64,000 nucleotides of DNA. Source: Thermoanaerobaculia bacterium. GTDB lineage: Bacteria > Acidobacteriota > Thermoanaerobaculia > Gp7-AA8. Below are positions 3,188-41,432 of this stretch, piece by piece (positions within the stretch are counted from its first letter, which is position 1; every line of letters starts with the position of its first letter). Location of the stretch: assembly GCA_017883205.1 (NCBI GenBank), contig JADGNZ010000025.1:1-64000 (forward strand), in the 5' to 3' direction. A program made the translations under genes and the position numbers. The notes beneath the pieces were generated by a model. It made no database searches. It saw only the letters and a program-made list of their open reading frames with translations, and was not told where the DNA came from.

Positions 3188-3798
3188 ATGAGTAAAGCCC
3201 GCCTGGAGACCTTCACCGACGGCGTGGTCGCCATCCTCATCACGATCATGGTGCTTGAGCTCCACGTACCGCATGGGAGGGAGTGGAGTGCGCTTCGCCA
3301 GCTCATCCCGACGCTCCTCACTTACGCGCTCAGTTTCATCTTTCTGGCCATCTACTGGAACAACCATCACCACATGTTTCACGCCGTCCACCGAGTGAAC
3401 GGCGGATCCTCTGGGCGAACATGCACCTGCTCTTCTGGCTCTCGCTCGTGCCGTTCGTGACCGGATGGATGGGCGAGAACAACTTCGCGTCGATCCCCCT
3501 GGCCGCGTACGGAGTCGTTCTGCTCATGGCGGCGATCGCCTACACGATTCTGCAATTCGCGATCATCGCGGACCAGGGGCCGCATTCGCCGCTCCTCGCA
3601 GCGGTCGGCGCTGACGTCAAAGGGAAGATCTCCGCCGCCCTGTACGCGATCGCGATCCCGCTCTCGTTTTACGAGCGCTGGATCGCCGGCGCGATCTACG
3701 TGACCGTTGCCCTCATCTGGCTAGCGCCCGATCGGCGCATCGAGGCCAAGGTTGCGTCAGGCGCTCTTCCGCACGAGAAGAGTGGTGGGCCGAAGTGA
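3188..3798 (+). pseudogene. TMEM175-family K+ channel-like protein, one-base frameshift
   Basis: Residues 1-72 in the first frame (RLETFTDGVVAILITIMVLEL, then IYWNNHHHMFHAVHRVNGG) are the typical TMEM175/DUF1211 N-terminus, with the FSD-like motif as FTDG. The family sequence continues one frame over (ILWANMHLLFWLSLVPF, then GENNFASIPLAAYG) to the stop at 3798. The break lies in GGCGGATCC at 3401-3406, where adding one base restores about 203 aa and all predicted membrane helices. It is either a real mutation or a consensus error in a G-rich spot. These proteins form potassium leak channels in membranes. Confidence 0.8.
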
Positions 3799-3964
3799 GC
3801 CCATCGTGTGCGGTGTCTTGCCGCCGTTCGCTGACGTAAGCCGCGCCACAGGCTCGAACGCAACGGTAAAAGCGGTGATGGAGACGCTTCGCAAGAACTA
3901 CCCGCGGGCGCCGTTCGGGGCACCGGATCACTGAGGCGGTTCAGAAAAGAACTGGTCAGACTGA

Positions 3965-4762
3965 TCAGACAGATCCGACCGATCGGTCGGATCTGCCCGT
4001 GGACTCCCCGGCTGCTTCGAAGGGCCTCGTTCCTTTGCATTCGGGATAGCCAGCACAGCCCCAGAACCGCGACCCGGCGCGGGCACCTTTGCGAGCGGTG
4101 CGTAGCTCCATACCCTTTCTGCAAGAAGGGCAAGCAGGAGCCCGCTCACCAGCCGGAGCAGTCGGATCAGCCCCCCTCTGTCTGGCCCATTCCGTCAGCC
4201 GCGCGGCTGCGAGTCGTTCGCTGTAGCCACCCTCGTGGATGAAGTCCCGCTCCAACGCGGCGATCTGACGATCGAGGAGGTAGTTGGCCTGGTGGATGAG
4301 GCAGATCACTGCGTTAGCGACCACGGCAGGGTCAGCGTGGTTCAGCCATTCCGCGTAGCTCGCAGCATCAGACTGATCCGACCGATCGGTCCGATCCTGC
4401 CTCCCTACCTCGCGGACCGCCTGCGCCTGCCGGTCGTCTTTTCCCCATTGCCTCAGACTCCGTTGTCGCAGGAAATCCTCATAGTCGAGCAGCAGCTCAT
4501 CCAGACTTGCCCGCGCCACGTTCACCAGGCGCAGCTCCGTCTGCGTCGAGGTGGCAGATGCCCGGCTGCCCTCGGCGATGTTCTGCCGTCCGCTGCGCGC
4601 CGCCTGCACCATCTGGTCCACAGTGCGTGATCGCTTGTCGACGAAGCGGCTGCAGAATGACACCGTCGCGTCGTAGATGATCGTGGTTACCTGAAACGAC
4701 CGTAGTTGGCGATACCCGCCACTCGGCCGCAGGCGCTTGATCGTGTCGATCGGCAACTGCAT
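3965..4762 (-). CDS. Four-helix-bundle protein with C-terminal zinc ribbon
   Basis: 265-aa protein. Residues about 25-125 resemble the S23/IVS four-helix-bundle family (QMVQAARSGRQNIAEGS, then ELRLVNVARASLDELLLDYEDFLRQR). A helical suffix domain follows, and then a topoisomerase-type zinc ribbon (CPSC, 19 residues, then CAGYPECKG). The family's role is unclear; the zinc ribbon suggests nucleic-acid contact. Two hydrophilic Ser/Asp/Arg patches (DRTDRSDQSD near the middle, and the C-terminal GRSDRSVGSV) are encoded by palindromic elements lying inside the gene. Confidence 0.75.
   Translation of the reverse strand: MQLPIDTIKRLRPSGGYRQLRSFQVTTIIYDATVSFCSRFVDKRSRTVDQMVQAARSGRQNIAEGSRASATSTQTELRLVNVARASLDELLLDYEDFLRQRSLRQWGKDDRQAQAVREVGRQDRTDRSDQSDAASYAEWLNHADPAVVANAVICLIHQANYLLDRQIAALERDFIHEGGYSERLAAARLTEWARQRGADPTAPAGERAPACPSCRKGMELRTARKGARAGSRFWGCAGYPECKGTRPFEAAGESTGRSDRSVGSV
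3970..3995. repeat. 26-bp perfect palindrome inside a coding sequence
   Basis: A self-complementary 26-mer centred on CCGATCGG, within the 3' end of the four-helix-bundle gene, where it encodes the last residues. A near copy lies at 4371-4400 in the same gene. Confidence 0.85.
4371..4400. repeat. Second copy of the GATCCGACCGATCGGTC palindrome
   Basis: It contains GATCCGACCGATCGGTC followed by CGATC, matching the 3970-3995 palindrome except for one arm position. It is in frame in the minus-strand four-helix-bundle gene and encodes part of its DRTDRSDQSD linker. Confidence 0.75.
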
Positions 4763-33919: not shown

Positions 33920-34073
33920 GTAGCGCAGACGTCCTCGTCTGCTACCGCCGGGCGTCCTCGCCCGGCAGGGGTTTTCGGCTCGATCGCCATGCAACTGTCT
34001 TCCGCGTCGCACACGCGAAACATCCCGTCGGGCGAGGACGCCCGACGGTAGCAGGCAAGGATGCCTGCGCTAC
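33920..34073. repeat. Cluster of nested GGCGAGGACGCC palindromes
   Basis: GTAGCGCAGACG-TCCT-CGTCTGCTAC (33920-33945), CGCCGGGCG-TCCT-CGCCCGGC (33946-33966), and a larger one at 34024-34073 with GTCGGGCG-AGGA-CGCCCGAC nested by flanks. The TCCT/AGGA loops are shared, so these are members of one family, also at 22577 and 57672. Confidence 0.8.
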
Positions 34074-35713: not shown

Positions 35714-35744
35714 ATCGCGCGGCGTTCGGGTCACGCGCGGCGTT

Positions 35745-35809
35745 GGGGTCAGGCCCTTGGTCAACGCATGGTTGAGTCGATAGACAAAGGCCTGGCCCCA
35801 ATCGGAACC
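35745..35809. repeat. RAYT-type REP, copy 1
   Basis: GGGGTCAGGCCCTTGGTC (35745-35762) and GACAAAGGCCTGGCCCC (35783-35799) are the imperfect arms, followed by AATCGGAACC. It lies downstream of the transposase gene. From 35810 to 36014 I see no gene. Confidence 0.85.
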
Positions 35810-36014
35810 AATCTTGATCGTCGCTGAAGGTGCGGAAAGGCGCTCGGTGCCGGTAGCCAGGCAGAACGTGAGGAGAACAGCTCCAAGGTTCTCGCCGAGG
35901 TTGACAAGAACCGGACAGAAATGGCACGTGGATGCCGGCTTCAGTCAGTCGCACCCGTCGGACGGCACACCCTCGCCCTGACTCATTGATCTTGAATCGT
36001 TCTACGACTGACTT

Positions 36015-36974
36015 TCAGGCCCGCAACGCGGCGAGCGCGCGGTCGTGCTGGTCGAGCAGTTCGTCGCTCTCGGAGAACGCCTGCTCGCATCGCCGGATCA
36101 GGTTCGAGATGTGTCCTTCACTTCGAAGCCGGAGCGACGCGGCAATCGAGCGCAGCGTGACCAGACCTTCATGCCATCCGAGCCACGCAACCAGGCTTCG
36201 CAGGATATGGCCTTGCGTCGAGCGAATGGTCTCTGCTGTCTCCCCCGCAGCCTTCGCCACCGCACTTACGATCATGTGCATCTTCGGCCTCGCCACCGCG
36301 CGCTGCGTCCGAGGATGGTCCGTCGAGCGCACTTTCGACTCGACCTGCTTGCGCATCGTCTTGAGCCATTCCTCGCTACCGAGGTATAGCTGATTGGTGA
36401 GCTGGTCCCAAAGGCGATCCTCGCAGCCGATCTTTGCCAGCACGAAGTCGCGGTACGCCGATTGCGCATTCGCCTCGTCGGGACCGAACAAACCATGAAC
36501 CGCCGCCACGTCCAGCCAGCTTGGCGCCGGCTCCAGTCCGGCGGTCGGGCGATAACTCGACCAGGGATACTGCTCGGGGCGCTCGCACATCTTCGCGCGC
36601 ACCGGATTGAGCACGACGTAGCGCAACACGTCCGCGAAATACGCCTCCCGGTCGATCAGCAGCGCCTTGAAGCGTCCCTGAAAGAGATGGCCGCATCGCC
36701 CGTGGACGCGATTGAACCAGTTCGCGTACGCGCTGTTGAGCCATTGCATTCCTTGCGAGAGGTTCGGCTCCGGCGTCTGCAGAACGAGGTGAAAGTGGTT
36801 CGTCATCAGCACCCAGGCCGTGACCGACCAACCGAATCGGAGCGCCGCCGCACCGAGGAAGGTCAGGAACTTTTCCCTGTCCCGGTTGGTGCGAAAGATC
36901 GCGCGGCGTTCATTGCCTCGGGAGGTGATGTGGTACAGCGCATCAGCGAACTCAAGTCGTAGCGGTCGTGCCAT
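36015..36974 (-). CDS. REP-associated tyrosine transposase (RAYT)
   Basis: 319-aa Y1-type (IS200-like, HUH) enzyme. HUH motif in TNHFHLVLQ (His pair near residues 60-62) and catalytic Tyr in DVLRYVVLNPVRAKM (near 120). SRGNERRAIF at the start and HLFQGRFKALLID are family hallmarks. The C-terminal third (HMIVSAVAKAAGETAETIR onward) is a DnaA-like helix-turn-helix region often fused to RAYTs. These enzymes cut single-stranded REP hairpins and are thought to spread them. Matching palindromes flank it at 35745 and 37142. ATG 36974 begins the conserved N-terminus. Confidence 0.93.
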   Translation of the reverse strand: MARPLRLEFADALYHITSRGNERRAIFRTNRDREKFLTFLGAAALRFGWSVTAWVLMTNHFHLVLQTPEPNLSQGMQWLNSAYANWFNRVHGRCGHLFQGRFKALLIDREAYFADVLRYVVLNPVRAKMCERPEQYPWSSYRPTAGLEPAPSWLDVAAVHGLFGPDEANAQSAYRDFVLAKIGCEDRLWDQLTNQLYLGSEEWLKTMRKQVESKVRSTDHPRTQRAVARPKMHMIVSAVAKAAGETAETIRSTQGHILRSLVAWLGWHEGLVTLRSIAASLRLRSEGHISNLIRRCEQAFSESDELLDQHDRALAALRA

Positions 36975-37108
36975 AGTGCCACCGAGCATCCCTCGGCAGC
37001 GCCAGAACACCGAGGAAATCCAAAAGGAGTAGCGAAAGCGGCCCCGGACCTCCTCGGAATGGAAGATCGCTCTACGGTGGGTGGAATGGCTGATTGCAGA
37101 GCCGACGA

Positions 37109-37256
37109 CCGAAGGTCTGGCCCCGACGGGTCCCAATGATCGGGGTCAGGCCTTCGATCGTCGCAGGGGTGAGTCGATAACCAAAGGCCTGGCCCCAATT
37201 GGAACAGGAACAGATGAATTGGAACAGATGGGCGTGGCCCCAATTGGAACAGATGG
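37109..37256. repeat. RAYT-type REP, copy 2 with partial copies
   Basis: Full element at 37142-37205 (GGGGTCAGGCCTTCGATC to ACCAAAGGCCTGGCCCC, then AATTGGAAC). A half element precedes it (37109-37139, GAAGGTCTGGCCCC) and another follows (37230-37256, GTGGCCCCAATTGGAACAG). It sits upstream of the RAYT start. From 36975 to 37292 there is no gene. Confidence 0.88.
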
Positions 37257-38467: not shown

Positions 38468-38532
38468 GGGGTCAGGCCTTCGATCATCGCAAGGGGGAGT
38501 CGATGACCAAAGGCCTGGCCCCAATTGGAACC
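38468..38532. repeat. RAYT-type REP, copy 3
   Basis: GGGGTCAGGCCTTCGATC to GACCAAAGGCCTGGCCCC, then AATTGGAACC. Almost identical to 37142-37205. No gene lies in 38324-38550. Confidence 0.88.
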
Positions 38533-41172: not shown

Positions 41173-41370
41173 ATGCCCGCCTTGATCATCGCTCTCGCTC
41201 TCGCGATGTTCCTCCTCGCGAATGTCGCCGCGTATCGCGTGCTCGTGCGGGTGCATCCGCGCAGGCGGGGGGGCGTCATCGCGTTGGTTGTCGTCGGGAA
41301 TGCGATGTGGGGGGTGTTTCCGTGGCTGAATGCTCGGACGGATTTCTCGCGCTTCGTGCGGCGTCATCTG
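41173..41370 (+). pseudogene. Truncated duplicate of the metallophosphoesterase gene
   Basis: 66 codons match the first 66 of the intact gene at 53860 (MPALIIALALAMFLLANVAAYRVLV, ARTDFSRFVR); similarity extends to the shared upstream TACAATCCCCCACCC. DNA identity looks near 90 percent by eye. The match ends at 41370 exactly where a RAYT-type REP begins, and the frame then runs through the REP into the antisense of sbcC. It encodes only membrane helices and no catalytic domain. Confidence 0.85.
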
Positions 41371-41432
41371 GGCAGGCCTTTGATCATCGCAGGGGTGAGT
41401 CGATTACCAAAGGCCTGGCCCCAATCGGAACC
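41369..41432. repeat. RAYT-type REP, copy 4, at a gene break
   Basis: GGGCAGGCCTTTGATCATCGC to ACCAAAGGCCTGGCCCC and AATCGGAACC, lacking the GTC of other copies at its left end. It joins the truncated metallophosphoesterase to the sbcC end. Confidence 0.85.

Follow-up and report, generated by a model that had tools for sequence, protein, structure and literature searches.

A TIRYT-like RAYT locus and its neighbouring palindromes in a Thermoanaerobaculia bacterium

Described tyrosine transposase systems and the window locus

Tyrosine transposases bounded by inverted repeats carrying the motif GGGGWSAS have been described as TIRYTs (Di Nocera et al. 2013, PMC3733652). In that study the TIRYT group with the sharpest definition is acidobacterial, and some of the terminal inverted repeats (TIRs) occur as families of repeated, dimeric or clustered copies. 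Most TIRYTs have been placed in subclass 2.1 of the TnpA-Y1 family, and no REP-like sequences were reported near this subclass (Quentin et al. 2018, PMC6006769). A GTAG motif is central to the TnpAREP enzymes so far studied (PMC8266576). Our search of the openly licensed literature found no biochemical evidence for subclass 2.1.

The locus analyzed here lies in a stretch of 64,000 nucleotides (the window) from a Thermoanaerobaculia bacterium whose genome, G000, comprises 6.37 Mb in 105 contigs. It matches a known, little-studied kind of element, the TIRYT/TIRtron of subclass 2.1. As in the acidobacterial TIRYT group, a tyrosine transposase gene is bounded by GGGGWSAS inverted repeats (GGGGTCAG in the window), but here the bounding sequences are complete TIR-TIR palindromes, and the palindrome families of this locus (C44) and of a paralogous one (C74) stay no more than about 7.4 kb from their gene. 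What is new is this close confinement to the gene, which is undescribed in the openly licensed literature. With subclass 2.1, or Bertels group 1, the locus shares NHFH, Y-x-x-LNP and a long protein, and a DnaA-like C-terminal helix-turn-helix can be detected in close relatives; unlike the subclass as surveyed (PMC6006769), most of our loci have cognate palindromes or paired ends. The REPtron or RAYT-REPIN systems of E. coli, Pseudomonas and Stenotrophomonas also combine a Y1 RAYT with cognate palindromes possibly mobilised in trans, but the window locus differs from them in having no GTAG foot, another hairpin architecture and few, local copies. IS200/IS605 elements and their miniature derivatives have the HUH/Y1 core and hairpin ends in common with it, and a duplicated relative on contig C41 of G000 shows no obvious target duplication by eye. 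The window-type elements differ from IS200/IS605 in their accessory domain, their long terminal inverted repeats, their mostly single diverged copies and a unit without tnpB.

The transposase gene and the palindromes around it

The transposase gene lies on the minus strand at 36015-36974 and encodes 319 aa from its ATG. The initial annotation read it as a Y1/HUH RAYT, and profile searches bear this out: the protein matches Pfam Y1_Tnp at 2e-12 and the NCBIfam model for REP-associated tyrosine transposases, REP_Tyr_transpos, at 79.7 bits by hmmscan (cut-off 80) and at 81.6 bits, above the cut-off, in the genome search. The IS200 transposase model scores 17.7 bits against a cut-off of 55. The HUH motif N59-H60-F61-H62 and Y119 in RYVVLNP are invariant across the homologues (alignment A5); Tyr119 is the candidate catalytic tyrosine. 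Together with the length of the protein, NHFH and YVVLNP conform to the subclass 2.1 pattern (NH[YF]H, Y[IV]xLNP, long protein). By sequence the closest solved structure is E. coli TnpArep (4er8, E=0.0044). Bac_DnaA_C is matched at about 1e-5, below its curated cut-off, by the C-termini of two homologues (L032 and L033). For the C-terminus of the window RAYT the sole match of this kind is Sigma70_r4 at a non-significant E=8.5, and the AlphaFold model is helical there at low confidence (mean pLDDT 53). Comparison with relatives gave dN/dS values of 0.14-0.20 with dS near saturation, which is consistent with a maintained protein function. In G000 a paralogue on contig C74 has 75% aa identity to the window RAYT. 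Two truncated relatives, apparently decaying copies, are present at G000:C42:48500-48934 (79% identity) and G000:C91:137808-138506 (73% identity), with no complete palindromes of the window family nearby.

Palindromes on both sides of the gene and two further copies had been noted, all within 6 kb. We found four 64-bp units, all on the plus strand, starting at 35745, 37142, 38468 and 41368 (the last had been placed at 41369); they span less than 5.7 kb, with the RAYT gene between the first two, and 49 of their 64 columns are invariant. Each unit consists of a 55-bp palindrome (GGGGTCAGGCCTTYGATC...ACCAAAGGCCTGGCCCC) followed by a 9-nt tail, AATYGGAAC, and each forms one long hairpin made of two abutted terminal inverted repeats starting GGGGTCAG. 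The palindrome downstream of the gene occupies 35745-35799 and is followed by its tail AATCGGAAC at 35800-35808, outside the palindrome; the one upstream occupies 37142-37196, with the tail AATTGGAAC at 37197-37205. The third palindrome with its tail (38468-38531) is intergenic and gives the strongest hairpin (z -5.3), and in the fourth (41368-41431) the left tip is degraded (CTGGGCAG). All four units carry the right arm AAAGGCCTGGCCCC without a mismatch; when up to two mismatches are allowed it has eight matches in the window against 0.36 expected by chance. The shared tail and the core GAGTCGAT are indeed invariant in the four units, as had been proposed, but GATCATCGC, also thought to be kept, is only partly so (GGTCAACGC in the first copy and GATCGTCGC in the second). 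A repeat longer than 64 bp was rejected: a repeat search gave 111 nt, yet to the left of the palindrome the alignment contained no genuine homology.

Folding energies of the four units lie well outside those of dinucleotide shuffles (z -3.6 to -5.3). Stem-pair covariation was no higher than in shuffles, and the hairpin is therefore supported by complementarity and by folding energy. No T-run follows the stem. The window also holds two half-sites absent from the initial annotation, a gene-proximal left end (GGGGCCAGACCTTC) on the minus strand at 37111-37124, 150 bp before the RAYT start codon, and a solo half-site on the plus strand at 37231-37250 (GGCGTGGCCCCAATTGGAAC) that adjoins ATTGGAACAGATG repeats. 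These palindromes had been taken for REPs belonging to the RAYT. They are cognate and strongly enriched near the gene, but they are not REPs in the strict sense, being single TIR-TIR hairpins of the GGGGWSAS type described in PMC3733652: the units start with GGGGTCAG and end with TGGCCCC, and the GT[AG]G foot of canonical REPs is found at neither end. At 33920-34073 the window carries a 58-bp imperfect inverted repeat beginning GTAGCGCAGACGTCCTCGTCTGC, with similar repeats in relatives (several matches in G017, for example), which looks like a separate, GTAG-bearing repeat family.

We surveyed the ends around RAYT relatives at 32 loci of G000 and of related genomes. Left-end motifs occur 55 times upstream and 12 times downstream of the gene, and right-end motifs 61 times downstream and 11 times upstream, against a background of 0.07-0.08 per kb in distant DNA; the ends at these loci are correctly oriented. 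At the 24 loci with both ends, left and right arms outside the search motif are 67% identical within a locus and 39% between mismatched loci (0 of 20,000 permutations). A proximal left end lies 140-180 bp before the start codon in 11 of 27 cases; in the window it lies at -150 (37124). End tips are also tandemly duplicated along with several bases of their flanks, the left ones on the upstream side and the right ones on the downstream side, at L127, L135, L125, L142, L114 and L134 and in the window, where 35716-35751 holds an 18 bp x 2 duplication of the outer palindrome tip at 35745 and its flank; tandem repeats take up 6.6% of the 450-bp RAYT flanks and 1.9% of sequence far away.

Distribution of the palindromes

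We counted the palindromes of G000 with a covariance model, R2, built from four copies of the window family and six C74 copies, all near RAYTs; its first pass scored 150 of 10,247 candidates, and weak, diverged copies could be missed. This census led to the identification of 11 palindromes, four at the window RAYT and seven at the C74 paralogue, all within about 7.4 kb of these two genes, those of the window within about 5 kb, and none elsewhere. The count called for in the initial annotation thus excludes a lack of enrichment near the gene, and it also departs from the high, dispersed copy number of canonical REPs. Copy orientation is uniform inside each of the two loci; an account of this by strand or replication was set aside, as GC skew along the contigs is too weak and irregular for replichores to be assigned. 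Pattern searches agree with the census, the tail-bearing form being confined to the window apart from three near-matches at C74, and an exact 14-mer search of G000 added one solo half-site on contig C52. In two genomes of the same genus that took no part in model building, eight of nine elements lie near a RAYT relative. Pooling three same-genus genomes, 19 of 20 elements lie within 7.5 kb of one; G001, which belongs to the same genus, has a RAYT at 3518-4474, and its C61 RAYT, one of those counted, is frameshifted. The binomial probability of such proximity is about 1e-29 if 2.5% of the genome is taken to lie that close, a figure that treats as independent some pairs only about 70-150 bp apart. 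Among the 19 genomes checked, none had many palindrome copies and no RAYT. Because none of the 60 relatives searched is syntenic with the window around the RAYT, no empty site turned up for the four palindromes.

Other, more diverged families in G000 and in the relative G008 are dispersed. Half-sites of the C41/C73-type family of G000 (arms CACTTTC...TGACCCC) number 73; they are spread over about two dozen contigs and are dense at the C41 and C73 RAYTs. Genome G008 has a single RAYT, whose inverted ends GGGGTCAGGCCTTTCC are separated by about 1.07 kb, and these two ends, or a near variant, recur abutted as 71-bp palindromes on some eleven further contigs. G005 has about ten half-sites around the C34 RAYT and one beside another RAYT (C94), and the remainder are spread over five other contigs. 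Locality is therefore a trait of particular families.

The dispersed C41/C73-type and G008 palindromes lie between flanks that complement one another over about 6 bp, for example GGCGTGA|element|TCACGCC and GTGCAT|element|ATGCAC. Over 34 elements (L155, L160, L162, L165, L167, L169, L172 and L176 among them) the mean number of leading complementary bases is 2.3 against 0.83 after permutation (0 of 5000). Candidate readings are insertion at the centre of short palindromes and extension of the arms through template switching. Flanks of the window family do not show this complementarity.

The proposed mobile unit and competing explanations

Contig C41 carries two RAYT units on the same strand, 7.58 kb apart and 90% identical over 1,261 bp. 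Homology between them starts exactly at the outer GGGG of the left palindrome and reaches a few bases past the outer CCCC of the right one; on either side the alignment breaks off. This limit at the outer palindrome tips indicates that palindrome, RAYT and palindrome moved locally as one block, and it is the best evidence for such movement, although the pair could in principle stem from a recombination-based duplication. By analogy the window block would be the 1,452 bp at 35745-37196, bounded by the first two palindromes and close to the interval first marked (35745-37256). It had been suggested that the 64-bp unit moves; what can be demonstrated as a mover is the whole block, at 1.26 kb in the related C41 element, and the small unit may in addition move by itself.

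We read the window locus as a TIRYT/TIRtron-type element, that is, a subclass 2.1 RAYT whose substrate is the hairpin-forming pair of ends bounding it and which has short-range, non-autonomous derivatives, and we give this reading a probability of roughly 0.7. The RAYT would recognise GGGGTCAG...CCCC hairpins in single-stranded DNA, cut and rejoin one strand through Tyr119, and move the whole palindrome-RAYT-palindrome unit; it may also move, in trans, palindromes of 55-64 bp made only of two ends, and may still be active. Re-insertion in the window family would be mostly short-range, and copies would then pile up, all oriented alike, no more than a few kb from the gene. More tentatively, and with less confidence than doubt, we propose that subclass 2.1 RAYTs in general move palindromic end-dimers with a strong preference for nearby sites (mostly less than 10 kb away and in one strand orientation), so that each RAYT keeps a private substrate neighbourhood and not a genome-wide population.

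Solo palindromes could also be deletion remnants of full elements, and single orientation and closeness fit segmental duplication as well. The main rival builds on this, taking the clustered palindromes for what is left of successive tandem full RAYT elements after recombination or deletion between direct repeats, and not for independent miniature insertions. Uniform orientation agrees with it, as do the truncated RAYTs on C42 and C91, the tandem tips near many RAYTs (35716-35751 included) and a truncated third copy on C41 that abuts the first unit and has a palindrome in common with it. However, unrelated host genes, and no RAYT remnants, lie between the RAYT and the palindromes at 38468 and 41368 and also between these two palindromes, and complete palindromes of the G008 and C41/C73-type families stand at many distant sites devoid of a RAYT; we consider this rival possible but rather unlikely.

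The hairpins are strong and intergenic, as host regulatory or terminator structures with no tie to the transposase would be, yet their stems lack a following T-run, loop and tail are conserved in sequence, the palindromes keep to RAYT neighbourhoods, and the arms of each family match the ends of its own RAYT, which leaves such an origin very hard to credit. A classic REP/REPIN-RAYT system could account for a RAYT family protein with flanking palindromes and for inverted half-sites that look like REPINs. It is improbable given the single long hairpin where two would be expected, the missing GTAG/GTGG foot and the low, local copy number, and given protein motifs and ends that fit TIRYTs of subclass 2.1, reported without REPs (PMC6006769). 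Quite improbable, too, is an ordinary active insertion sequence of the IS200/IS605 family: the predicted chemistry is of the Y1/HUH kind, the ends of the unit are defined and C41 provides a duplicated copy, but the IS200 model scores far below the RAYT model (17.7 against 79.7 bits), and most of the paralogues have diverged (aa identity about 45-75%, with 90% at the DNA level for the C41 pair) where near-identical multiple copies would be expected.

These loci offer, gene by gene, candidate hairpins with matched ends as substrates for group 1 or subclass 2.1 RAYTs, near which the published survey found no REPs. Together with the exact boundaries of the duplicated C41 unit, these hairpins make binding and cleavage assays easy to design, and proximity-limited spread, if true, would be a population dynamic unlike that of REPINs.

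On contig C41 (L069, 4045-8370) the RAYT and an adjacent RND-type efflux ORF both take their C-terminus and stop codon, GSDRK*, from the tip of the palindrome. The C41 RAYT ORF also contains another palindrome, which leaves its frame unbroken.
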